This document shows positions 1,977 through 42,900 of a stretch of DNA of 46,194 nt, piece after piece. How positions within the stretch are numbered: position 1 is the stretch's first letter; every line of letters starts with the position of its first letter. The notes under the pieces are model-generated. The model was given only the letters and a program-made list of their open reading frames with translations, did no database searches and was not told where the DNA came from. Source of the DNA: Blastocatellia bacterium (lineage in GTDB: Bacteria; Acidobacteriota; Blastocatellia; UBA7656; JADIYM01); NCBI GenBank assembly GCA_021463145.1, contig JAJTWZ010000033.1, positions 1-46,194 on the forward strand, given 5' to 3'. Made by a program: the position numbers and the translations under genes.

Positions 1977-2360
1977 TTGGACGACTGGCCCACAGTCTTT
2001 GCCGGCTTCCGTGCAGCGTTCGTCGAACGTTTACCCACGCAACTGAGCGAGGCGCGCGAGGCGCTCGAATCCCTGACTTCAGCGGCCGGGTCTGACGAAG
2101 CACTTACCAGCCTGCATCGTGTCTTCCACAAGGTCGCCGGTTCGGCCGGAACCTATCTCTTCGACGAGATCGCGCGTGTCGCCACGGACGCCGAATCCCT
2201 TTGCCGCCGCCTGATGGATCGTGGAGGTTCTCCTGAGACCGATCACATCGACGAATTGGCCCGATACATCGTCCGAATCGACTCCGCGTGCGCGGAAGCG
2301 CAACACGAACTGTCAACCGTAAATACAGCCGACTTTCCCGCCGGCCTGCAGAGACTCTGA
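1977..2360 (+). CDS. HPt domain phosphotransfer protein
   Basis: A 127-residue single-domain histidine phosphotransfer protein. The motif FHKVAGSAGTYLF (residues 50-62) matches the HPt active-site helix (H-x-[LV]-K-G-S-A), with His51 as the predicted phosphorylated residue; Ala replaces the common Gly/Lys neighbour at position 54. The rest is amphipathic helix, as expected for the four-helix HPt fold. It starts at TTG behind a perfect AGGAGG. It is the first gene of a co-directional group: coiled-coil protein, OmpA-type protein, Rab-like GTPase, histidine kinase. In known phosphorelays an HPt shuttles phosphate between a receiver and a kinase; the kinase at 5432 and the CheY-like protein at 6983 are natural candidate partners (inference). 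Confidence 0.8.
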   Translation: MDDWPTVFAGFRAAFVERLPTQLSEAREALESLTSAAGSDEALTSLHRVFHKVAGSAGTYLFDEIARVATDAESLCRRLMDRGGSPETDHIDELARYIVRIDSACAEAQHELSTVNTADFPAGLQRL

Positions 2361-2398
2361 AACTCAACCGAGGCCCGCTCGAGCAGCGGTGAACGCCG

Positions 2399-3193
2399 AT
2401 GGCATCCAGAACGTCCGCCGTCAAGGGCGCAAGAAGCGCTCCGAAGTCAGCATCCGCCACCACGACCACCGCGAAGAAGCCGTCGCGCCCGTCGACAGTT
2501 CGCACCGCCGACAGGCCGGCCGCTCGCGCCTCGGCAAAGCCGGCCCCGGTCGCCAAATCCAAACCGAAAGCAGCCAAACCAGCAGCGAGGAGAACACCGA
2601 TGACGACATCGTCCGGAAAGAACCGTCCCGACGCCGATCCCGACGCCAAAGCGCTCACCGCCGCCGGCGAAATGGCCGGCTCCGGTAATCTCGAGAAGGT
2701 CCGCGACATACTCTTCGGATCGCAGATGCAGGCGCTCGACCGCCGCTTCCAGAAACTGGAAGAGCGCATCGTCAAAGAGACGTCTCTGCTTCGCGACGAA
2801 ACCAAGAAGAGGCTCGACGACCTGGATGCGTACGTGAAACGCGAAGTCGACACGATCGTGGACCGTATCCGAACCGAACAGGTCGACCGCTCATCGGCAG
2901 ACAAGGATCTCGGTCAGCAGTTGCGTGAGTCGACGTCGGCCATCGAGTCGAGAATCGCAACACTGGACGAACAGACGGCAAAGGCAGATCGGGAGCTGCG
3001 CCAGGCGCTTCTGGATCAGTCGAAGTCGCTTGGAGAGGAAATCCGGATGAAGGCCGAGGAACTGTCTGCGGCGCTCGACCGCGAGTCCGAGCACCTCACG
3101 AACGACAAGGCGAGCCGATCCGCGCTTGCGTCCCTGTTCATGGAGTTGAGCATGCGGCTCAACAACGAGTTCAACCTGCCGATCGACGAGTAA
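2399..3193 (+). CDS. Coiled-coil protein with Lys/Ala/Pro-rich N-terminus
   Basis: 264 residues from ATG 2399. Residues 1-67 are low-complexity Ala/Lys/Pro/Thr-rich and very basic. Residues 95-135 carry a conserved-looking block (LEKVRDILFGSQMQALDRR...KLEERIVKE), and residues 110-250 are strongly heptad-like, so a long parallel coiled coil is likely. No signal peptide or membrane segment. An alternative start at ATG 2600 (MTTSSGKNRPD) has GAGGAG 7 nt upstream, whereas ATG 2399 lacks a clear site; the mature protein may therefore be 197 aa. The stop is 1 bp before the GTG start of the OmpA-type protein, so the two are almost certainly co-translated. I believe the block after residue 95 recurs beside OmpA/GTPase genes in other bacteria, but I cannot verify this here. 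Function unknown; a cytoplasmic scaffold is plausible. Confidence 0.75.
   Translation: MASRTSAVKGARSAPKSASATTTTAKKPSRPSTVRTADRPAARASAKPAPVAKSKPKAAKPAARRTPMTTSSGKNRPDADPDAKALTAAGEMAGSGNLEKVRDILFGSQMQALDRRFQKLEERIVKETSLLRDETKKRLDDLDAYVKREVDTIVDRIRTEQVDRSSADKDLGQQLRESTSAIESRIATLDEQTAKADRELRQALLDQSKSLGEEIRMKAEELSAALDRESEHLTNDKASRSALASLFMELSMRLNNEFNLPIDE
2587..2592 (+). promoter_or_regulatory. Internal ribosome binding site, alternative start at 2600
   Basis: GAGGAG sits 7 nt upstream of an in-frame ATG at 2600 inside the coiled-coil gene. It is stronger than anything before the upstream ATG at 2399 and would remove the basic low-complexity N-terminus. Confidence 0.5.
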
Positions 3194-3194
3194 C

Positions 3195-4934
3195 GTGTCC
3201 GGACCCGATCCACGGGAGTCGCCCGCCGGGAACGACACCGGCGCAACCGAGCCATTCAACGAGCTGCGGTCGATCCTGCTCGCACCCGAGCAGGAAAGAC
3301 TGCGCCAGCTTCAGGAGCGGCTCGACGACCCGAGGCATCGCGCCGAGGACTTGAGCGGCGTACTGCCCGAAGCGATCGCCATTCGCGCGCGGCGCGACGA
3401 CCGGCTGCTCGTCTCGATGCGTCCAGTCGTATCGGAAGCGATGCGCGACTCGATGCGCCGGGATCCGAAGTCGTTTGCGGACGCGCTCTTCCCGGCGCTC
3501 GGTTCTGCGATTCGAAAGGCTATTGCCGCAACGCTCGGCGAGATGGTCCAGTCGCTCAACCAGGTAATCGAGAACACGTTCTCGGTCCGCGGCCTGAAAT
3601 GGCGGCTGGAGGCGATGCGCACCGGACGGCCTTTTGCCGAAATCGTTCTGCTTCGCAGTCTGGTTTACCGGGTCGAGCAGGTTTTCCTGGTGCATCGTGA
3701 GACCGGATTGCTGCTTCAGCACGTCGAGTCCGGCGCAGCAGCTGCGAAAGACGCGGACATGGCCTCCGCAATGCTGACGGCGATTCGCGACTTCGCGCGC
3801 GACACATTCGACGCCGGCACTGAGGACTCCCTCAACAGCCTGAACATCGGAGACCTGACGGTCTGGATCGAGCAGGGACCGCACGCGATAGTCGCTGCGG
3901 TGATCCGGGGCACGGCGCCGCTTTCGTTCAAGGACGTATTGCGCGAGACGGTAGAGCGAATCCATCTCGAGCAACTCGAACCGCTCGACGACTTTCAAGG
4001 CGATGCGACGCCATTCGAGGCCTCGCGGCCGGCGCTGGAGTCGTGCCTTGTGGCGCAGTACGCCGTGCCCGAGCAGGAAGCGTCGCCGGTACTTAAGATT
4101 GCCACCGCCACACTCGCGCTCGTAATCGTCATTGCGCTCGCGATGTGGGCCTATGCGGCCTGGACCTGGCGGGGCGCCGTTGCGGCGCTGAAATCCGAGC
4201 CCGGAATCGTCGTCACCGAAGCTGAGCGGAACTGGTTCGGCGCGAACCTGGTGGAGGGGCTCCGGGATCCACTGTCGAAGGATCCGCGCGAGATCCTTGC
4301 ACTCCACGGCTACGGGTCTGCGGATGTAAGACTCGACCTGCAGCCGTTCGCCTCGTCGGACGCTGGAATCGTCACGAAACGCGCCCGTGAAGTCCTTCAG
4401 GCGCCCGATGCCGTCGAGTTCGCTTTCGATAACGGCGCCTTGTCGGCGTCTGGAACCGCGCCATCTCCCTGGATTGCTCGCGCCCGCGAGTTCGCTCCGT
4501 TCGTCGCCGGAGTCAGAAGCTACGCCGACGAAAGGCTTCTCGATACGACCGCGGCCGCGATCAAGGCCGAGGCCGAACGGCTTCGCGCCGTTCGTATTCC
4601 GTTCGCGCTCGGTTCTGCCGAACTCGTGCCGGAAGCCGCTGAAGTTGCCCGCTCGGGCGCCGGAATACTGTCGGCTTTGGATACGATCGCTCGCGACGCC
4701 GGGGGCACGCTCCGTATCCGGATCGTCGGTCAGGCCGATGCCTCCGGAACCGATGCGACAAACGCGCGCATCAGCCGGCTTCGGGCCGAGGCCATTGCCC
4801 TGGCGGTGAACACGGCGCAGTTCCGCAATCTGGAATTCGACCTGCAGGGTCTAGGCGCAACGCCCGAGTCCGATCGAACTGTTACATTCCAGGTCGACGA
4901 GTCGTCCCTCTCGCCCCGCAAGGCGAACCAATGA
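3195..4934 (+). CDS. Transmembrane OmpA-type protein with large cytoplasmic N-domain
   Basis: 579 residues from GTG 3195. There is no signal peptide. The single strong membrane segment is at residues ~301-324 (IATATLALVIVIALAMWAY), so residues 1-300 should be cytoplasmic and 325-579 periplasmic. Periplasmic part: a BON-like stretch (~400-450), then an OmpA/MotB C-terminal domain (~466-565) with Asp515 and the NxxxSxxRA pattern (Asn523, Arg530) that binds peptidoglycan in this family. Cytoplasmic part: residues ~155-265 (VEQVFLVHRETGLLLQHV, then DADMASAMLTAIRDF, then a hydrophobic strand AIVAAVIRG) have the strand-strand-helix order of roadblock/longin-like domains, which bind small GTPases; this assignment is my inference. 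Its stop overlaps the start of the GTPase gene by 4 bp (ATGA), giving tight translational coupling. Likely role: linking the cell wall to the GTPase/kinase switch. Confidence 0.85.
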   Translation: MSGPDPRESPAGNDTGATEPFNELRSILLAPEQERLRQLQERLDDPRHRAEDLSGVLPEAIAIRARRDDRLLVSMRPVVSEAMRDSMRRDPKSFADALFPALGSAIRKAIAATLGEMVQSLNQVIENTFSVRGLKWRLEAMRTGRPFAEIVLLRSLVYRVEQVFLVHRETGLLLQHVESGAAAAKDADMASAMLTAIRDFARDTFDAGTEDSLNSLNIGDLTVWIEQGPHAIVAAVIRGTAPLSFKDVLRETVERIHLEQLEPLDDFQGDATPFEASRPALESCLVAQYAVPEQEASPVLKIATATLALVIVIALAMWAYAAWTWRGAVAALKSEPGIVVTEAERNWFGANLVEGLRDPLSKDPREILALHGYGSADVRLDLQPFASSDAGIVTKRAREVLQAPDAVEFAFDNGALSASGTAPSPWIARAREFAPFVAGVRSYADERLLDTTAAAIKAEAERLRAVRIPFALGSAELVPEAAEVARSGAGILSALDTIARDAGGTLRIRIVGQADASGTDATNARISRLRAEAIALAVNTAQFRNLEFDLQGLGATPESDRTVTFQVDESSLSPRKANQ

Positions 4935-5428
4935 TCCAGAAGAAGATCTGCATGCTCGGATCGTTCGCCGTCGGAAAGACGAGCCTGGTTGCACGGTTCG
5001 TTCACAGCATTTATCGCGACCAGTACCTGACGACCGTTGGTGTGAAGATCGACAAGAAGCAGGTCCGCGTAGGCGATAATGACGTCACGCTCATCCTCTG
5101 GGATCTGCACGGCGAGGATGAGTTCCAGAAGATCAGGTCTGCGTATCTCCGCGGATCTTCCGGGTTTCTATTCGTTGCGGACGGCACGCGCAGGTCCACA
5201 TTCGACAAGATTCACGAACTTCAGGAGAACGCCGTATCTGCCGTCGGCGACGTTCCGTTCGTCGTGCTCGTGAACAAGTCGGATCTCAAGCCGGAATGGG
5301 ATGTGGATGCCGAGGCGCTCGGCGCAGCCACCGATCGCGGTTGGACCGTCCTCGAGACCAGCGCCAGGACCGGTGAAGGCGTCGAAGATGCGTTTCTGGC
5401 AATCGCGGAATCTATGTTGAGGCGCTGA
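4931..5428 (+). CDS. Rab/Ras-like small GTPase (copy 1)
   Basis: 165 residues, only the G domain. G1: GSFAVGKTS (residues 10-18). G2: Thr35 in YLTTVGVKID, typical of the Rab switch I. G3: WDLHGED (57-63), where Ras has DTAGQ, so the Gln61 equivalent is Glu62. G4: NKSD (115-118). G5: TSA (143-145). There is no C-terminal cysteine for lipidation, so membrane recruitment would need a partner. It overlaps the OmpA-type gene by 4 bp and is followed after 3 bp by the histidine kinase. Copy 2 at 33920 has the same length and shares about 90 of 165 positions in an ungapped hand alignment. The Gln-to-Glu change, shared by both copies, suggests slow intrinsic hydrolysis or dependence on a GAP (inference). 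Confidence 0.92.
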   Translation: MIQKKICMLGSFAVGKTSLVARFVHSIYRDQYLTTVGVKIDKKQVRVGDNDVTLILWDLHGEDEFQKIRSAYLRGSSGFLFVADGTRRSTFDKIHELQENAVSAVGDVPFVVLVNKSDLKPEWDVDAEALGAATDRGWTVLETSARTGEGVEDAFLAIAESMLRR

Positions 5429-5431
5429 CGG

Positions 5432-6943
5432 ATGGCGGACCTTCCCGATCTGCTCGCCGAGTACCTCGAGACCGCGGTCGTTTCGACCCGCTCGCCCGCG
5501 TGGATGCACGTCGCACACCATGGCGCGCTCGTGGGAGCCGGCGGTCCGCTGGGGATATACGGAATCGCCACCCTTGCACCGGGAGATGCTGTAGCTCCGG
5601 CAGTACCGATGCTCGAAGGACTGCTGCCCCTCGACGAGCCGATCGAACTTCCGTGCGTGGGAATCGGCACGGGACTGCCGGCCGATATTCATCTGATTCC
5701 AGGCGAAGATGGCGACTGGGTGCTGATCCTCGACGCAACATCGGAAGCGATTCTGCGCGGGCTCGTCCAGCAACGATCGAACGATCTGCTTCTCCTTCAG
5801 GCGCGCCACGACGCCCTCGGCAAGGGCCCGCCTGGCGTTCGCGACATTCCATCATCGCTCTCCGCCGTCCTTGGCGCTCTCGTAATCGAGGAAGAAGCAT
5901 CGGGCAACCTGGTCGCGATCGGCCGGCCTCCGCAATGGCTCGCGCGATTCGTCGATCCGGACGCTGAACCGGCCGGGGCCGGAATTGTCGATCGCTTCGC
6001 CTACCTCGAGTCATTCCTTGTCGACGCTCGGGAGTTCTGGGCGCGCGATGCCGGAGCCGTTCTCGAAGGCGGATCGTGGGAAGAGACCGACGACACGGGC
6101 ACGAACGCAAGCCTCGACGCAGTTGCTGTCGGCGTCGGAGGCCGCAGGTTCATCGTCGTGCGGCACGTGGACGAGGCGCGCGACGAACGACGGCGGGTGA
6201 TACAGCGCGCTCGCGAGGTTCGCCTCGACCTGGACCGCCTGCATAGAGATTCGCAGCAGCGGGAGGTGCTGTTCCACTGCCTCGTGCACGACCTCGCGGG
6301 CCCCCTGACGAGCATGAAGGCAATTTTCTCGATGCTGGAGCGAGAGTCCCTGCCGGATTCGATGAAGCGGCTCGTCGACATAGGCACGAGGCAGACAGCA
6401 CGTCAGGAGGAATTGATCCGTGAGATGCTCGACGTATTTGCCGACGAACGCCGTGTTTTCGATCCCGCGACGTTCGACCCGAAGTCGGCACCCGACGTCT
6501 GCTCCTGCGCTCGCTCGGTCGTAAGCGCACTCGTTCCCGCCGCGCGTGCGAAGAGCGTCAATTTGGAGACGGAGGGGTGCGACGAGGCGATGCGCGTCAT
6601 CGGCGATCGGCTCGTGCTGGAGAGGGTGATCTCGAACCTGGTCGAAAACGCCATCCGCCACGTGCCCGACGGCGGCGGCGTCTCCGTGAGAGTCGTCCGC
6701 TCGGACGAAACGGCCTTGGTCGAAGTCGACGACAATGGCCCGGGTGTACCCGACAGCGTGGCCCCCACGCTCTTCCGGCGGCTGTCTCAAGGATCCGGGC
6801 CTCGAGGCAAGGCGGGACTGGGTCTTTACTTCGTGCGAATGACGGTCGAGCGATGGGGGGGCGTCGTCGGATTCACTCCGATGCCCAAGGGTGGATCGCG
6901 CTTCTGGTTCAAGCTGCCCGTCGTAGAGAGCCTCGCGGACTAG
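5432..6943 (+). CDS. PAS-like sensor histidine kinase
   Basis: 503 residues, soluble. Residues 1-125 form a PAS-like domain (YLETAVVSTRSPAW near the start, EGLLP at 62-66, WVLILDATSEAI near 96-107) that is clearly paralogous to the N-terminus of the protein at 34418. Residues ~250-285 are a coiled linker. The dimerisation H-box is LVHDLAGPLTSMKAI with His286 as phosphoacceptor. The ATPase domain has N-box NLVENAIRH, G1 DNGPGVP, F-box LFRRL and G2 GLGLYFVR. It starts 3 bp after the GTPase stop, so it is in the same operon. The convergent response regulator at 6983 ends 40 bp away. A reasonable model is that the GTPase regulates the kinase through the PAS-like domain (inference). Confidence 0.9.
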   Translation: MADLPDLLAEYLETAVVSTRSPAWMHVAHHGALVGAGGPLGIYGIATLAPGDAVAPAVPMLEGLLPLDEPIELPCVGIGTGLPADIHLIPGEDGDWVLILDATSEAILRGLVQQRSNDLLLLQARHDALGKGPPGVRDIPSSLSAVLGALVIEEEASGNLVAIGRPPQWLARFVDPDAEPAGAGIVDRFAYLESFLVDAREFWARDAGAVLEGGSWEETDDTGTNASLDAVAVGVGGRRFIVVRHVDEARDERRRVIQRAREVRLDLDRLHRDSQQREVLFHCLVHDLAGPLTSMKAIFSMLERESLPDSMKRLVDIGTRQTARQEELIREMLDVFADERRVFDPATFDPKSAPDVCSCARSVVSALVPAARAKSVNLETEGCDEAMRVIGDRLVLERVISNLVENAIRHVPDGGGVSVRVVRSDETALVEVDDNGPGVPDSVAPTLFRRLSQGSGPRGKAGLGLYFVRMTVERWGGVVGFTPMPKGGSRFWFKLPVVESLAD

Positions 6944-6982
6944 CGATCCGCATCCCGGGTCCGCTCCAAGCCGCTTTCGCCT

Positions 6983-7351
6983 TCAGGCATCCCGAAGTGC
7001 AACTCGAATCCGGTCGCCCAATGTAACCGGATCGAACGGCTTCTCGAGCACGGCGACCGCCCCGAGTCCAAGCAGCTTTCCGACGTCCGACTCGGCCGGA
7101 TTCGCCGTCATGAAGATCACGGGAACATCCGATGTAGAAGGATCCTGACGGAGGCGCTCGAGCACCGCTGGACCGTCCTCGAGCGGCATGAAGACGTCGA
7201 GCAGGATGACGTCCGGTCGAGTCTCTCGTGCCAGCGCGATGGCCTCGTTGGCCGAAGCCGCTTCGCGGGCAGTCATGCCGCCGAACCTTTCCAGGCCAAT
7301 AGCGGTCAGATACCGGATGTCCGGTTCGTCGTCGAGGATGATAATGCGCAT
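6983..7351 (-). CDS. CheY-like single-domain response regulator
   Basis: 122 residues, receiver domain only. Acidic pocket Asp7/Asp8, phosphoacceptor Asp52 in ILLDVFMP, Thr82 in FMTAN and Lys104 in EKPF are all present. There is no output domain. It is convergent with the histidine kinase, whose stop is 39 bp from this gene's stop; kinase, HPt protein and receiver together could make a phosphorelay. ATG at 7351 is the natural start, since MRIIILDDE is the expected first strand. Confidence 0.92.
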   Translation of the reverse strand: MRIIILDDEPDIRYLTAIGLERFGGMTAREAASANEAIALARETRPDVILLDVFMPLEDGPAVLERLRQDPSTSDVPVIFMTANPAESDVGKLLGLGAVAVLEKPFDPVTLGDRIRVALRDA

Positions 7352-33919: not shown

Positions 33920-34417
33920 ATGCTTCAGAAGAAGATCTGCATGCTTGGCGCTTACGCTGTCGGCAAGACGAGCCTCGTCAGCCGGTACGTCACGTCTATG
34001 TTCTCCGAGAAATACCTTTCCACGGTCGGCGTGAAGATCGACAAGAAAACCGTCGAATACGGCGGAGAGACCGTGATGCTCATGCTCTGGGACATTTACG
34101 GCGAGGACTCGATGCAGAAGGTGCAGATGTCGTACCTGAAGGGAGCCTCGGGATATCTGCTGGTCGCGGATGCAACGCGGCGCGAGACACTCGACAAGGC
34201 GGTCGCCCTTCACGAACGGGCCGGCGAGGTCGCTGGAAACGTTCCATTCCTTCTGGTCGTCAACAAGTCGGACCTCGTTACCCAGATCGAGATCGACGAT
34301 ACCGCGCTGAGGCCCCTCATCGATTCCGGATGGACGGTCCTTCGCGGCAGCGCGAAGACCGGCGAGGGTGTGGAGGAGGCGTTCTCGACGTTGACTGGCC
34401 GGCTCGTGGGAGGCTGA
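33920..34417 (+). CDS. Rab/Ras-like small GTPase (copy 2)
   Basis: 165 residues from ATG 33920, chosen because it aligns with the first residue of copy 1 (MLQKKICMLG against MIQKKICMLG); a TTG 12 bp upstream is in frame but unsupported. G1 GAYAVGKTS (10-18), switch I Thr35 in YLSTVGVKID, G3 WDIYGED (Glu62 in place of Ras Gln61), G4 NKSD (115-118), G5 GSA. No lipidation cysteine. About 55% identical to copy 1 by ungapped hand count. The start of the PAS-pseudocyclase gene follows directly after its stop, with no gap. The shared unusual G3 motif (WD-[LI]-x-GED) marks the two as a distinct subfamily. Confidence 0.92.
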   Translation: MLQKKICMLGAYAVGKTSLVSRYVTSMFSEKYLSTVGVKIDKKTVEYGGETVMLMLWDIYGEDSMQKVQMSYLKGASGYLLVADATRRETLDKAVALHERAGEVAGNVPFLLVVNKSDLVTQIEIDDTALRPLIDSGWTVLRGSAKTGEGVEEAFSTLTGRLVGG

Positions 34418-35383
34418 ATGGCCGACACTCCGCGCATCGTCCTCGATTATCTTGCGGCTCTCGTCGTCGAGACTCGGTCGCCCGCCTGGATTCGCACGGA
34501 TGACGGAGGCAGGGTGACCGGCTGGGGCGGCGACACTGCCGCGTACCGATTGTCGTCTCTTGCCGAGGGTGAACCCGCCGGTCTCGTCCTGCCGGCGATC
34601 GAAGGCCTGCTTCCGCATTCCGGCGGCCCGCTGCGGCTTCCGGCCGTGGAGCTCAACAGCAGCCAGTTCGTCGACGTGCACGTCTTCGGCGAATCGGAGC
34701 AGTCGTGGGTGCTGCTCACCGATGCCACGCTCGAAACGACGCAACAGGCGATGCTGCAGCAGCGGCTCAACGAGGTGAACCTCGTTCGGGGATGGCACGT
34801 GCGCGCCGCCGACGATCAGATCTCTCGCCTGGATGCCAGCGGACTGGTCGGCGAACTGCCAGCGTTTTCCGAGGAGGGAGAACGGCTGGAGGTCGCAGCC
34901 GCCCAGATTCGGTTCACGGTATCGCTGCCGGCGGCTCCGGAGCTTGCATCGGACGATCTCGTGCCGCTCGGACGAATCCTGCGTGCAATCGCCGAAGCTG
35001 CCACCAACGAGTCGGGCTACGTGACTTCGGTTACACAGGGCTCGTTGTCGGTGCTGTTCGGAGTGCTGCCCGCCGGCGCGACGCCGCAGACTCACGCGGT
35101 CAGGGCAGTGCTCGCCGCCGCCGAGGCGTTTCGCACCCTCGAGTGCGAGAACGCAACGATGGCGGCCGGGATAGCGTCCGGATTCGTCTCCGCGGGTATC
35201 GTTCAGGTAGCCGGCAGCCGCGTTTTCCTTGTGTCCGGCGACTGCGTCAGGGTAGCCAGGCGACTCGCGAGCAATGCGGGTCCCGGGCGGCTGCTCATGG
35301 ATGAAGCGACTCGGCGCGACGCCGGCGATCCGGCCGCGGGGTCGGTTTCTGTCGACGGCGCCTTCTCCCTGAGCTTCTCCTGA
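34418..35383 (+). CDS. PAS-like sensor with degenerate nucleotidyl cyclase domain
   Basis: 321 residues. Residues 1-125 are the same PAS-like domain as in the histidine kinase at 5432 (shared YLxxxVVxTRSPAW, EGLLP, LPxV, WVLxxDATxE and QQRxN). Residues ~155-321 follow the class III cyclase homology domain: YVTSVTQGSLSVLFG (201-215), HAVRAVLAAAEAF (226-238), AAGIASGFVSAGIVQ (249-263), LVSGDCVRVARRLAS (271-285), RLLMDEATRR. Both metal-binding aspartates appear lost: Ser209 stands where KxxGD places Asp, and RFTVSL has no FxD. Arg281 of the NxxSR-type helix remains. Catalytically dead or a non-nucleotide output is likely (inference). Co-translated with GTPase copy 2. The last 181 bp overlap the antisense glycosyltransferase gene. 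Confidence 0.82.
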   Translation: MADTPRIVLDYLAALVVETRSPAWIRTDDGGRVTGWGGDTAAYRLSSLAEGEPAGLVLPAIEGLLPHSGGPLRLPAVELNSSQFVDVHVFGESEQSWVLLTDATLETTQQAMLQQRLNEVNLVRGWHVRAADDQISRLDASGLVGELPAFSEEGERLEVAAAQIRFTVSLPAAPELASDDLVPLGRILRAIAEAATNESGYVTSVTQGSLSVLFGVLPAGATPQTHAVRAVLAAAEAFRTLECENATMAAGIASGFVSAGIVQVAGSRVFLVSGDCVRVARRLASNAGPGRLLMDEATRRDAGDPAAGSVSVDGAFSLSFS

Positions 35384-37581: not shown

Positions 37582-38175
37582 CTACTTCCAGAGCCCCTCG
37601 AAGTCGAAGCTGGCAGCCTTCGTGTATCTGGCCGTGTGAGTGATGTAGACGTGTCCGAGGTAGTCCTGGATTAAACGCGTATCGCAGCCTCGGTTCGCCA
37701 GGTAGTAGCCCGTACTGTGCCGTAGCATGTGCGGATGGACGCGAAATCCGAACTCCGCGCGCTCGCCGGCCTGGCGGACAATGTAGTTGACCGCCTGGCG
37801 AGTGAACGGCCCACGTTCGCCAAGGAAGAGATACGGCGAGCCCGCCTCGCCCCGGAGTCGCAGTAAGGCACGGATCGCGCGCAACTCATCGCCAGGAATG
37901 GGCTGAATCGTCGACGTGCCCTGGTTGAGCCTGCGAACGAAGATTCTGCCGACCTCGAGATCAAGGTCGGAGATGCGGACGTCGATCAGTTCGGAGACGC
38001 GAAAAGCATGGCGGAAAGCCATCAGGATCATCAGATGATCGCGTGTTCCGTATTTGTTCTGCTTCGCCGCCAGGAGGAGTCTTCGAATCTCCTCCTCCGT
38101 CAGAAACATCCGCTTTTCGACTCTCGACTCTCCCATCTTCGACTCACTCTTTACATTACGGAGTTTGGCGACCAC
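37582..38175 (-). CDS. FimB/FimE-type tyrosine recombinase
   Basis: 197 residues, catalytic domain only, the length of Fim invertases. Conserved residues: Arg59 (FRVSEL), His149/Arg152 in HMLRHS, His175 in YLGHVYI, Tyr184 nucleophile in TARYTKA. The catalytic Lys of the beta-hairpin, which FimB has in RLKKG, appears replaced: this protein has RRLNQG, so Asn84 sits in its place. Starts: GTG 38175, or ATG 38136 (MGESRVEK). It sits between a repeat-bearing gap and the protease gene. The role could be phase-variation inversion or integration of the neighbouring segment, but I found no matching inverted target pair. Confidence 0.9.
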   Translation of the reverse strand: MVAKLRNVKSESKMGESRVEKRMFLTEEEIRRLLLAAKQNKYGTRDHLMILMAFRHAFRVSELIDVRISDLDLEVGRIFVRRLNQGTSTIQPIPGDELRAIRALLRLRGEAGSPYLFLGERGPFTRQAVNYIVRQAGERAEFGFRVHPHMLRHSTGYYLANRGCDTRLIQDYLGHVYITHTARYTKAASFDFEGLWK

Positions 38176-38274: not shown

Positions 38275-41200
38275 TCACTGTCCATCCCAGCTCCCGGCGA
38301 CCGGTACGGCTCCCTGGTCACTCGGGCCGAAGGTAAGCTCGACGTCGGCATCGCCTTCGTCGTTCGAATTCCGAAGCAGGAAAGCGCCCGTCGACGGATC
38401 GTAGAGTCCGATCGTGCAGATGTTGTCGCCGTTCCAATCACCGGAGATGGGAAGGTAGCCCTTACCTCCCGCGCCGTACGTGAACGTCAGATCTGCCGGC
38501 CCGTTCGTGTTGGAGTTTCTGAGGAAGAAGACGCCCGTCTCCGGGTTGTAGATTCCAACCGTATCGATGCCATCACCGTTCCAGTCACCGACGATTGGCA
38601 GGAAGCCCGCATTGCCTGGTCCAAGTTGCAGGATGACATCCGCATTACCGGCGGCGTTGATGTTCTTCAGGAAGAAGTTGCCGGTCGAGGGGTCATAGAG
38701 GCCAATCGAATCGACGCCCTCACCGTTCCAGTCACCGGCAATCGGGATCCAACCCAAGTTCGACGGACCATAGGAGAACACATAGTTAGCTCCGCCCGGG
38801 CCGTTGGTGTCGGATAGGAAGACCCCCGCCGTGGGATTGTAGAAGAGTCCCGGGGTATCCGTCCCCGATCGATCCCAGTCTCCGGCGATCGGGACCCAGC
38901 CTGTTCCACCTGGGCCGAACGAGAACGTCAGATCCGCAGCGCCGTCAGTGTTGGTGTTTCTGAGGAACCACCCGGCCGTCGACGGAATGTAGATTCCGAT
39001 CGACTCGCCGAATCGAACGACCTTGACTGTGAACTGAGTCGACGCCGTCAGTCCAACCGCATCAGTAGCCGTCGCGGTGACGAGCGTCTTTCCGTTGGGG
39101 AACGTCGTCCCGGAAGCGGGCGCCGCCGTCACGGCTACCGTCGTACAGTTGTCGGAGGCCGACGGCAACGGGAACGTCACCGTTGCACCGCTGGCCGAAC
39201 TCGACGTCCTGAGGTAGATCGCCGGTACCGGGCCAGCAATAGTGGGTGGCTGAGCGTCAACAACCGTGAATGTCGTAGTGCACGTGCCGGTGTTGTTGGA
39301 CGCGTCGGTCGCCGACACGGTGATCGTATGAACGCCCGGTCCGACCATAGAACCAGCTAGAGGAAGCTGTGAGAGCACCAAGGAACCAGATGCGGTGCAA
39401 TTGTCAACGGCGGTCGAAGCTGATGTGATGTTGGGTACTGGAGCCAGACAGCCAGAAGTAACCTGGAACGACGTGCCAGATGGGCACTGAACCTCAGGCA
39501 GATCGGAGTCAACCACAGTGACCGTTGCTGTACATTGGCTACTCAACCCATCCGGATCGGTCACCGTTAACGTGACCGCCGTTACGCCAAGCTCATAAGG
39601 GCCCGGTGGAGACTGCACGACGACAAGCTCGTCTCCGTCCGGATCCGTTGATCCAGCATCGATGCTCGCGGAAGCCGTGCAGTCTGCCAAAGCTTCAACT
39701 ACGGTATCGGAGCATACGGCCACTGGCGCACGGTTCGCGATAGAGAATCGAAGCAACCAGCCTGCAGATAGCTCACCCCGGTCCCCGCGCGCATTGTCCA
39801 CCACAAAGAGCTTCCAGACTCCATTGGGATCCGATCCTTCGAAGACATCCAGGCCCGTACCGTACTCAGGCAAGGGTGCCGGGGGCGGGAATGCGTCGCC
39901 GAACAACGCCTCGTGATTCGTGGGAAGGTATTCACCAGACACAATCTGCTCGTCATCGGGCAAACCCGCTGCAGCCGTATTCGTAAACGTTATCATCCCA
40001 CTATCAACGTCGCGACCCCCACCGACGTCCGACATCAGGAGAACAGTCTGGCCATCCGGCCCGACCAGAAGCACGTCCAAGTCATCCGGAAACGTATGAT
40101 TGAGCCCGTCTAGGACAACCGACATGCTCTCAATCTCGACACTAGTCGGAGACCGATCGCCACCCCCACCGCCTCCCCCGACTCCGCTGACCTCAATCTC
40201 AGACGGATACGTGGTTGCCTCGCCATGGTCAGGAATAGCCATGGCGTCTCCCACGAACTCGTACTCACCGCCGCCTCCCCGTGCCGTCCTGCTAACGTCG
40301 GCACCGAGCACTCCGCCGGAAGAGCCTCGAGTCGGCGAGACTCCGGTGGTAATGCGTACATTGTCAATAAGCACCGTTAGCCCCAAATTCCAATAATCTC
40401 GAATCTGGCCTTCATTCCCTTCGATAAACATTACAATCGACACCCACTCGTCGAGCGATGAGCTCGGTCGAGGCAGAAGATCACTTCGCTCGCGAAGCCA
40501 GCCGGTAGACTCGATGTTCGCGCAGCCACCCGATTGTCCTTGATACGTGTATTCGGAGCAGGCAATACCCGATGTCGGTGCACCTAATGGAAATACGGAC
40601 TTGAGAATGACGCTCGGTTGCAAATAGCCTGAGGTCCCAGAGTGACTTCCCACGACAAACATTGTGAGAAACGGCAGCTGCGGGAGTGAACTATTGGCAG
40701 CTAGGTCCGGGCCAATTAGGTTATAGTCAAACTCCAATGAATACACGCTTTGACCTGACATGCAAAAGCGTTGACTAATTGAGTTAGAATAAGGTCCCCT
40801 ATCCGACGGCGGAAGATTAATGCGGGCAAAATAGTTTCCGGTAGACGGCTGCACCGATCCGTACTTCGAGAACGGTCCGGGTGACAGCGGACCCGCATTC
40901 GGTGACCAGCCCGCGTGCCATCCAGCAAAATCGCCAGTCTCGAAGCCGCCATTTCGAAACGTGTCGCGAGGAGGCTTGGCCGGATTCTTGAGCGGGTGCA
41001 AAGTTACTGAAAGACATCCAAACGTCATAGTCGGATAGTCCGGGTGAGGAGAACCGCACACGCCATTCGGCCACTCAGCCTGAAACGCGTCGGCAATGGA
41101 CATTCCGGACGATGCAATAAACGACCCTAATACTCGATTCTGAGTGTCTCCCATGAATGGCGTCAATCCAGCCTGCTCTTGCGCCATTACAAAGTTTGCG

Positions 41201-42900
41201 CCTCCACGAATAAAAGCCTCGGGAAACGAGAAACCCCCAGTGACGGGCACGTCCGCTGCATAGCAGGCGCCAAGTGCAATGACGCTGTTCGGATATCCGC
41301 GCCGCGTTGCGTAATCGGCTACAAACTGTGGCGTTATACCATAAATCGAGAACGGAGTTGGATATGCAGGAAATGGTGCCGGATCGCAGTTAGGCGGAGC
41401 CCACTTTTTCATCGTATAAATGCTCAGCCGACGCGGAGTTGACCTGAAGTCTCGCGAGTATTTGGCAGACGTAATCGGGTTCACCAGCTCGCCGGTCATC
41501 AACCCACCCCCGCCACGCGGACCATGTGTAGAGATGTACACAAGTCCGTACTCGGGCATTCTTCGAAGCACATCGACAGTTGCGTACTGGCCTACGAACT
41601 GATCCACTTCATAGTTGCCGCATGGCACATTGGCAATGATTTCCGCAAACTCATCTGCGTTCGAATAATTGGTGCACGGTACTCGCTCGAAGGCAAATGG
41701 GTCGAAAATCAAGACGCGATTATTTTGAATGCGCCTTGCACCTTCCGGCACAGCGAGCTTAGATCTAGAACGGGGCTGATCTTTGCGCGGACGTTGGTCG
41801 ACTGGTCGTGTATCTGGACTCCGCAGCGGCGATACACCGTCGGCGGCAGCGCCTTGCTTCGACTCCGGTTGCGGAAGGGTCGCAGTGTTAAGCAGTAAGA
41901 CGGTACCAGTTAGTCCAGAGTCGTAAGTAATGCTTAGATTTGCAGCGTCCGGGTCTAGATAGGCAGCGATGACAGACTCGTCTCCTATTACTCGATCCCT
42001 AAGTGCAATCGCAGCGCCTATTCGCCCGAGCGTAGGGACATTGCCCTCGTACTCCGTCAATGCGGCCTCTTGAAACGCAACAACTGCGTTCGACTCAGCG
42101 CCCGTGACCGGCACGAGCGCCTCGATTGTAATCGGCGCAGAAGTCGAGGCAAGCTCGCCGTTCTCGGCGCTGACTTGAAGAAAGATCGTTCGAGGGACGG
42201 CGGATGAAAAGGGCCGTCGCAGACTAAACACGCCGTCACCTGCAATGCTGTCTCCGGAAGACTGTGAACCATCGTCGGTCAAAAGGCCGAGACCCTGAAT
42301 GAGTGTGCCATCTTCCTCTATCTCCTCGAGCGATACCTGAAGCGAACTGCTCAGGTCACTATGCGGCACTCGCGCAGAGATAACTACATCCTGTGATCCG
42401 ACCAGCGGAATCCAATCAGGCGTCGCGCTCACATTGCTAATTGAAATGTCAGGCCCGGTCACATAAACAAGCATGCCCGAGATGGCGCTTTCGTCGACAA
42501 GCACTGCAATCTCATTGACCGCAAAAACCTCGATCTGGCGTTGGACTATGTGGACCCCAGATGTGAAGTCGGCGGCACTAACTACGGGCACCTGATTTAT
42601 CGACACATTAGCCGCGCCTGTAGCACCATCAACTTGCTCGACCACCAGTAAGTGCGTCGGCAGGTCACCCTCACCGGCGTAGAACTCATCTTCCACCAGA
42701 CCTTCACTTGCAGTGTATTTGTATGGACCGAATCGCGTATTCGCACCGAACGCGTTTACCAGGGCGGACCTCGTCGATTGAGGCGCGACCAGCAACGGCA
42801 AAGCTGCGGAAGCTCGCTTGACCGCGAACGCACTTTGGGGAAGCCACATCGAGACAATCAGTCCGATGAGCACGGATGTTACTAGGCGGCCGTTAACCAT
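38275..42900 (-). CDS. Secreted caspase-fold protease with P, HYR and repeat domains
   Basis: 1541 residues with a signal peptide (1-26). Order: N-terminal pro-like domains (~30-345; resembles the lipoprotein at 42956), linker rich in Arg/Pro (346-385), caspase/C25-like core (~390-640) with predicted dyad His459 in VYISTHGPRGGGG and Cys546 in VIALGACYAAD, a beta-sandwich (~640-880), a proprotein-convertase P-type domain (~890-1060; PDDLDVLLVGPDG, DPNGVWKLFVVD), two HYR-like domains (~1060-1295, with paired Cys and TDPDG/ATDASNN loops), and five GDWNGDG repeats (1298-1541). A surface or released protease by analogy with gingipain-like enzymes. The last five repeats are the same family as in the lysyl oxidase-like protein. 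The 5' half is noticeably more AT-rich than its surroundings. Confidence 0.85.
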   Translation of the reverse strand: MVNGRLVTSVLIGLIVSMWLPQSAFAVKRASAALPLLVAPQSTRSALVNAFGANTRFGPYKYTASEGLVEDEFYAGEGDLPTHLLVVEQVDGATGAANVSINQVPVVSAADFTSGVHIVQRQIEVFAVNEIAVLVDESAISGMLVYVTGPDISISNVSATPDWIPLVGSQDVVISARVPHSDLSSSLQVSLEEIEEDGTLIQGLGLLTDDGSQSSGDSIAGDGVFSLRRPFSSAVPRTIFLQVSAENGELASTSAPITIEALVPVTGAESNAVVAFQEAALTEYEGNVPTLGRIGAAIALRDRVIGDESVIAAYLDPDAANLSITYDSGLTGTVLLLNTATLPQPESKQGAAADGVSPLRSPDTRPVDQRPRKDQPRSRSKLAVPEGARRIQNNRVLIFDPFAFERVPCTNYSNADEFAEIIANVPCGNYEVDQFVGQYATVDVLRRMPEYGLVYISTHGPRGGGGLMTGELVNPITSAKYSRDFRSTPRRLSIYTMKKWAPPNCDPAPFPAYPTPFSIYGITPQFVADYATRRGYPNSVIALGACYAADVPVTGGFSFPEAFIRGGANFVMAQEQAGLTPFMGDTQNRVLGSFIASSGMSIADAFQAEWPNGVCGSPHPDYPTMTFGCLSVTLHPLKNPAKPPRDTFRNGGFETGDFAGWHAGWSPNAGPLSPGPFSKYGSVQPSTGNYFARINLPPSDRGPYSNSISQRFCMSGQSVYSLEFDYNLIGPDLAANSSLPQLPFLTMFVVGSHSGTSGYLQPSVILKSVFPLGAPTSGIACSEYTYQGQSGGCANIESTGWLRERSDLLPRPSSSLDEWVSIVMFIEGNEGQIRDYWNLGLTVLIDNVRITTGVSPTRGSSGGVLGADVSRTARGGGGEYEFVGDAMAIPDHGEATTYPSEIEVSGVGGGGGGGDRSPTSVEIESMSVVLDGLNHTFPDDLDVLLVGPDGQTVLLMSDVGGGRDVDSGMITFTNTAAAGLPDDEQIVSGEYLPTNHEALFGDAFPPPAPLPEYGTGLDVFEGSDPNGVWKLFVVDNARGDRGELSAGWLLRFSIANRAPVAVCSDTVVEALADCTASASIDAGSTDPDGDELVVVQSPPGPYELGVTAVTLTVTDPDGLSSQCTATVTVVDSDLPEVQCPSGTSFQVTSGCLAPVPNITSASTAVDNCTASGSLVLSQLPLAGSMVGPGVHTITVSATDASNNTGTCTTTFTVVDAQPPTIAGPVPAIYLRTSSSASGATVTFPLPSASDNCTTVAVTAAPASGTTFPNGKTLVTATATDAVGLTASTQFTVKVVRFGESIGIYIPSTAGWFLRNTNTDGAADLTFSFGPGGTGWVPIAGDWDRSGTDTPGLFYNPTAGVFLSDTNGPGGANYVFSYGPSNLGWIPIAGDWNGEGVDSIGLYDPSTGNFFLKNINAAGNADVILQLGPGNAGFLPIVGDWNGDGIDTVGIYNPETGVFFLRNSNTNGPADLTFTYGAGGKGYLPISGDWNGDNICTIGLYDPSTGAFLLRNSNDEGDADVELTFGPSDQGAVPVAGSWDGQ
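38278..39009 (-). repeat. Five C-terminal repeats shared with the lysyl oxidase-like gene
   Basis: Encodes residues 1298-1541 in five units of 46-51 residues. Unit pattern: [ST][IVP]G[IL][YF]-P-x-[ST]-G-x-F-x-L, N-x-N-x-x-G-x-A-[DN], GDWNGDG. Matches the repeats at 29786-30505 in unit length and number. Confidence 0.9.

Follow-up and report, generated by a model that had tools for sequence, protein, structure and literature searches.

The Group 1 Rup GTPases, described in 2014 by Wuichet and Sogaard-Andersen, were placed by that analysis nearer to the eukaryotic Rab/Ras/Rho/Ran group than any other prokaryotic proteins, and none of them had been characterised at that time (PMC4316618). They were noted to be devoid of the G3 glutamine and to be accompanied by three further neighbourhood genes. 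The first encodes a cytoplasmic coiled-coil protein, the second a protein made up of an unknown but conserved domain, a helix in the inner membrane and an OmpA domain, and the third an output protein, typically a GGDEF/EAL protein or a histidine kinase, whose N-terminal region carries an invariant glutamine (PMC4316618); no fold was assigned to the unknown domains, and kinase and c-di-GMP outputs alone were named as typical (PMC4316618). The focus of the present analysis is a locus of a Blastocatellia bacterium (assembly GCA_021463145.1, contig JAJTWZ010000033.1, positions 1 to 46,194; this whole stretch of 46,194 nucleotides is referred to below as the window) which, judged by its sequence, is a Group 1 Rup signalling module and so belongs to a kind of system that has been described but not characterised. 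What is of most interest beyond the 2014 description is the longin/roadblock-type fold predicted for the "unknown" domain of its membrane protein. To our knowledge, no guanine nucleotide exchange factor (GEF) or GTPase-activating protein (GAP) of a Group 1 Rup GTPase has been reported; no later or bench study of these systems was found in the open-access literature.

A conserved Group 1 Rup neighbourhood

An earlier note on this DNA, made from the letters alone, had listed six genes at its 5' side, and all of the open reading frames (ORFs) and gaps turned out to be exact: the first five lie head to tail on the + strand, with 38 bp between the HPt and coiled-coil genes and spacings of +1 bp (coiled coil to OmpA gene), -4 bp (OmpA gene to GTPase) and +3 bp (GTPase to kinase), while the receiver gene is convergent, on the - strand, 39 bp from the kinase gene (Table 1). 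Every testable defining feature of Group 1 is present in this locus, the comparison being one of features and not of placement in the published 71-sequence tree. Shared with the description are a single-domain Ras-superfamily GTPase with eukaryote-like G1-G5 motifs and without the G3 glutamine; a coiled-coil neighbour, judged as such from composition and weak coiled-coil family matches; a neighbour composed of an unknown domain, a transmembrane helix and a C-terminal OmpA domain; and an output, here a HisKA and HATPase_c kinase, with an N-terminal glutamine, whose correspondence to the glutamine of the paper rests on the description given there. The statement of the earlier note that no named system has this composition was thus given up, since the same gene set is already found in PMC4316618. 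Its expression "Cell-wall-anchored Rab-like GTPase" also needs correction: among the core proteins a transmembrane-like segment is seen in the OmpA protein only, the GTPase itself being unanchored and, like the kinase, soluble. The OmpA match of the window protein alone lies below the Pfam cut-off (3e-4); with a family profile, solved OmpA domains are matched at E-values down to 3.8e-16. A short motif recurs in two of the proteins, as IRDILFG in the coiled coil and as LRxLLLG at the N-terminus of the membrane protein, with an hhalign probability of only 8%; perhaps it is a docking or assembly element common to the two.

In the PDB, the window GTPase is matched best by Rab23 (7e-26), and a Thorarchaeota Rab comes next. 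Across 95 GTPase homologues the motifs GxxxxGKT, T35, DxxG, NKxD and SA are conserved; the catalytic glutamine of G3 is absent in all 95, its place being taken in the window by E62.

One scan of public genomes supplied 80 GTPase loci, whose neighbourhoods were compared by means of profiles built from the window and its homologues, each count being made over the loci with enough flank for the gene in question. The OmpA protein is encoded directly upstream of the GTPase in 60 of 66 loci, a homologue of the coiled-coil gene is present in 52 of 58, and a protein carrying at least one of the two N-terminal modules of the window kinase (modules A and B, see below) follows the GTPase in 67 of 70. The contig labels of these loci name Cyanobacteria, Myxococcales, Nitrospira, Acidobacteria/Blastocatellia, Bacteroidetes, Planctomycetes, Verrucomicrobia, Gemmatimonadota, Desulfobacterales and Proteobacteria, among others. 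Within the class of the window, 29 of 162 genomes encode both the GTPase and the OmpA protein, two the OmpA protein only (both incomplete assemblies, 71% and 89%) and none the GTPase only (Fisher p about 5e-30, the relatedness of the genomes being uncorrected); in all of the 29 genomes having both, the two genes are at most 3 kb apart. Because of this adjacency and co-occurrence, the arrangement is far beyond what chance would produce. The earlier note had put forward that a membrane protein binding peptidoglycan is coupled here to a eukaryote-like GTPase and a kinase; this coupling is real and conserved, and the search for conserved neighbourhoods that the note had proposed as a check found coiled coil, OmpA protein, GTPase and output recurring together rather than scattered.

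The predicted fold of the membrane protein

Residues 1-300 of the membrane protein were modelled by AlphaFold2 from an alignment of 73 sequences (pLDDT 82.8, pTM 0.55). The model consists of a helical part (residues 18-143) and of an alpha/beta part (residues 147-282) with the topology helix, two strands, helix, three strands, helix, and residues 144-282 show in it the features of a longin/roadblock fold. Compared with the PDB by Foldseek, this domain matched the adaptor (AP) sigma subunit, TRAPP, Mon1-Ccz1, COPI zeta, MglB, an Asgard roadblock protein, Ragulator, FLCN/GATOR and Fuzzy-Inturned, with E-values from 2e-4 to 4e-3 and TM-scores, normalised by target, of about 0.45-0.72 (small single-domain chains). 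The listed matches, as far as their chains could be identified, are all longin or roadblock domains; in contrast, the PAS model of the kinase, passed through the same procedure, returned PAS proteins. On the strength of the model, residues 144-282 probably have a longin/roadblock-type fold.

Since the predicted fold is shared with proteins that act as partners of GTPases (MglB, TRAPP, Mon1-Ccz1, Ragulator and Fuzzy-Inturned), the domain may regulate the GTPase, a proposal whose chances we put slightly short of even. It is supported by the observation that Rab23, the closest solved relative of the window GTPase, has Fuzzy-Inturned as its GEF (PMC6864590). The fullest form of the proposal, according to which the membrane protein of Group 1 Rup systems would be a peptidoglycan-tethered GEF or GAP, of longin/roadblock type, of the Rab-like GTPase, and the whole a widespread envelope-sensing switch with exchangeable PAS-headed outputs, is advanced tentatively.

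Several points weigh against it. The sequence-level searches for the longin-like domain, in Pfam and by profile in the PDB, gave no significant match: hhalign of the domain versus 23 roadblock domains was negative (probability 0.3%), and the Pfam models Fuz_longin_1, the commonest among the non-significant matches (4 of 69 members, best 0.13), and Robl_LC7 (one member, 0.083) did not reach significance. The assignment rests on one AlphaFold2 model and on the Foldseek E-values given above. Since profilin-like folds include longin, roadblock and PAS alike, the fold alone is no proof of GTPase binding; the interfaces between the GTPase and its putative partners are proposals.

Kinase modules, outputs and the proposed direction of the signal

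The kinase had been called PAS-like in the earlier note, and here structure and sequence diverge: structure prediction agrees with the name, and at the level of sequence no PAS family was matched. The AlphaFold2 model of kinase residues 1-265 (pLDDT 87.8, pTM 0.63) shows the PAS topology twice, so that both module A and module B have a predicted PAS fold, and its top Foldseek matches are tandem-PAS proteins (a LOV-PAS kinase, PpsR and NifL). The isolated modules gave no match in Pfam, PAS models included, and no profile match in the PDB, and hhalign of module A versus module B was negative. A likeness of the tandem model to Fuzzy (rank 29, E 1.1e-4, TM 0.22) was not taken as homology. The conserved glutamines, Q113/Q114 of module A and Q258 of module B, lie in the helix after the final strand of the respective module; Q258 is found in 71 of 71 module B sequences, and R261, one turn on, in 68 of them.

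Among 67 loci with module A or B, the two modules are on separate proteins in 27 and on one protein, as in the window, in 11; B alone occurs in 21 and A alone in 8. Pfam identified HATPase_c in 44, a class III cyclase in 15, a sigma-54 activation domain in 10, GGDEF in 7 and EAL in 7 of 114 proteins carrying these modules, some of them truncated. Within the class of the window the outputs comprise A-kinase, B-kinase, B-kinase-receiver, B-PAS-kinase-receiver-receiver-HPt and B-PAS-sigma-54 activator proteins, or an A-cyclase followed by a B-kinase. The front end is thus constant and the output exchangeable, over a range wider than the two typical types of 2014; that modules A and B form the constant part of exchangeable outputs is as expected if they face the GTPase.

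The signalling route proposed here builds on what the sequences show (the genes present and their conserved order, the families to which they belong, the folds predicted for them and their conserved residues), and is supported by the conservation of the order across phyla and by the strict co-occurrence and adjacency of the GTPase and membrane protein genes. The single-pass inner-membrane protein would grip the peptidoglycan by its OmpA-like domain and present its helical and longin/roadblock-like domains to the cytoplasm, where the latter, with the coiled-coil protein as a scaffold, would control the nucleotide state of the GTPase as a GEF or a GAP; the GTP-bound GTPase would act on the tandem PAS-like modules, altering the autophosphorylation of the kinase, and in this genome the receiver and the HPt protein of the same locus would carry the phosphate further. 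What we infer is which way the signal runs, that the proteins touch directly, what the cue is (wall state or mechanics) and that HPt and receiver take part; taken from the wall-anchored protein through the GTPase and the kinase to the receiver and HPt, the mechanism as a whole is given an even chance. The points raised above against the regulator count against it too, as does the lack of conservation of the HPt and receiver genes at this locus.

Chance clustering of unrelated genes is contradicted by the conserved order and by the co-occurrence of GTPase and OmpA protein, and deserves practically no weight. A reversed route, in which the kinase stands upstream, the PAS-like modules act as a GAP lending a glutamine in trans (Q258, or Q113/114 in A), and the GTPase or the membrane protein is the output, is considered unlikely; a GTPase acting as output downstream of the kinase has reportedly been suggested for the actinobacterial conservon. 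The lack of the G3 glutamine in every GTPase homologue is in its favour, as are the invariant glutamine of module B and the near-invariant arginine three residues on, and both the idea of a trans-acting glutamine and the conserved glutamine of the output go back to the original authors (PMC4316618). That glutamine, however, sits in the helix joining the last PAS strand to the kinase, where residues relaying signals through a coiled coil are expected, and outputs with obvious end products (cyclases, GGDEF/EAL proteins, sigma-54 activators) fit modules A and B as receivers of a signal. Still less probable is that the membrane protein and the coiled coil are a positional landmark at the wall to which the kinase is brought by the GTPase, much as in polarity control by MglA, no wall signal being sensed: a wall-anchored protein with a coiled-coil partner would suit such a role, for which the polarity function of MglA is a precedent (PMC4316618), but the outputs are enzymes and transcription activators, not motility machinery.

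The end of the proposed route, from kinase to receiver and HPt, has an alternative of its own, namely that these two are unrelated neighbours, the module ending with the kinase and the partner receiver being encoded elsewhere; this is a serious possibility, if on the less probable side. The earlier note had counted both as part of the set, which the relatives do not bear out: the only Hpt match among 78 sampled upstream ORFs is that of the window, no close homologue of the window HPt lies beside another such operon in the 162 genomes of the class, and the receiver, convergent to the operon, is not conserved in the relatives of the locus. HPt as a conserved component was accordingly rejected. 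On the other side, the HPt gene lies on the same strand close upstream of the coiled-coil gene, and two relatives of the same order carry one or more receivers and an HPt fused behind the output kinase, which makes an involvement plausible; the HPt sequences of the window and of these relatives are not recognisably close. The stand-alone HPt and receiver seem particular to this locus, a lineage-specific but plausible presence, and could be a split form of the fused relay or parts gained separately; their membership in the system is judged about even.

If a longin/roadblock-type regulator on the membrane protein is confirmed, the missing regulator of Rup GTPases would gain a name and a testable surface, a GTPase pathway from wall to cytoplasm would be opened to biochemistry, and the origin of the pairing of Rab and longin proteins could be asked in bacteria. 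The joining of one input stage to kinases, cyclases, sigma-54 activators and c-di-GMP enzymes would provide readable outputs for such tests.

The rest of the window and related systems

Table 1. Features of the Rup loci in the window (positions in nucleotides of the window)
Feature	Position	Strand	Details
Stand-alone HPt domain protein, first gene of the run	1977..2360	+	127 aa, TTG start; Pfam Hpt 1.3e-9
Cytoplasmic coiled-coil protein, Rup neighbourhood	2399..3193	+	264 aa; conserved R-x-I-L-F-G motif; family profile 1e-82
Single-pass OmpA-type membrane protein	3195..4934	+	579 aa; cytoplasmic helical and predicted longin/roadblock-like domains, transmembrane helix, periplasmic OmpA-like domain
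Longin/roadblock-like domain of membrane protein (residues 144-282)	3624..4040	+	Predicted (AlphaFold2 model, Foldseek)
Transmembrane segment of membrane protein (residues 299-317)	4089..4145	+	Kyte-Doolittle maximum 2.47 at residue 299
OmpA-like peptidoglycan-binding domain (about residues 467-571)	4593..4907	+	Conserved G518, N523, R530
Rup-type (Ras/Rab-like) GTPase	4931..5428	+	165 aa; Ras 1.1e-33; G3 motif DLHGED, without Gln
Soluble histidine kinase	5432..6943	+	503 aa; modules A and B, HisKA 5.8e-7, HATPase_c 6.9e-23
Module A of kinase (residues 1-128), PAS-like	5432..5815	+	Conserved QQ at 113-114, C-terminal helix
Module B of kinase (about residues 136-265), PAS-like	5837..6226	+	Q258 and R261 in C-terminal helix
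Stand-alone CheY-like receiver, convergent	6983..7351	-	Response_reg 2.7e-24; assignment to the system provisional
Second Rup-type GTPase	33920..34417	+	57% identical to the first; alternative ORF start 33908
Module A protein with divergent class III cyclase-like C-terminal part	34418..35383	+	321 aa; module A profile 1e-37; Guanylate_cyc 0.031, sub-threshold

A second GTPase is encoded 28.5 kb downstream of the first, directly followed by a gene for a module A protein with a cyclase-like C-terminal part; no coiled-coil or OmpA gene adjoins it. Since in cyanobacterial loci a single GTPase precedes both an A-cyclase and a B-kinase, the two loci of the window may, by analogy, correspond to such an arrangement split in two, with a GTPase for each half. 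Paired Rup GTPases were also seen in other genomes, in tandem in locus L100 (7983-9115) and, on a Myxococcales contig (loci L020 and L087), at a distance of about 14 kb.

Outside the two loci, positions 218-615 are occupied by 11.1 tandem copies of a 36-bp unit (93% matches), an array which yields long spurious ORFs on both strands. A recombinase of the phage-integrase family (37582-38175, - strand; Pfam 5e-36) adjoins a 1541-aa HYR/P-domain protein (38275-42900, - strand); the GC content of this stretch is 0.55-0.59 versus about 0.63, and it is possibly a mobile island.

The window departs from the Group 1 Rup description in the HPt gene which heads the run and the convergent receiver which follows it, in the fusion of modules A and B on one kinase, and in the distant second GTPase with its module A-cyclase-like partner. 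With the actinobacterial conservon (CvnABCD) it has in common a histidine kinase and a Ras-superfamily GTPase in one operon; the conservon, however, consists of a membrane kinase (CvnA), a roadblock protein (CvnB), CvnC and an MglA-type GTPase (CvnD), whereas the window has neither a CvnC-type gene nor a separate roadblock gene, no protein of the locus matching a roadblock family, its GTPase is of another family and its kinase is soluble, with no transmembrane-like segment. As in MglA/MglB, a bacterial Ras-superfamily GTPase is tied to two-component proteins, and MglB has a roadblock fold to which the one predicted for the membrane protein is similar, a likeness of predicted fold only; the window GTPase matches Ras/Rab and is Rab-like, not MglA, and no Pfam Robl_LC7 domain was detected in any protein of the locus. 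Elsewhere in the same genome (G000, contig C152, 31769-32833) a weak GTPase match lies beside a gene of the Robl_LC7 family; the two are likely an MglA/MglB pair of their own.

Eukaryotic Rabs with longin-type GEFs (Rab23 and Fuzzy-Inturned, Mon1-Ccz1, TRAPP) share with the window a GTPase, here closest to Rab23 among solved structures, and a partner for which a longin-type fold is predicted. They differ from it in that the likeness of the partner domain is one of predicted structure, the sequence comparisons having given no significant relation, in that the partner in the window is a single-pass, peptidoglycan-binding protein, and in that the window has no trafficking machinery. If the proposed regulation is correct, an envelope switch would be built in these bacteria from the same two parts, a Rab-like GTPase and a longin-type regulator, that are employed in eukaryotic membrane trafficking.

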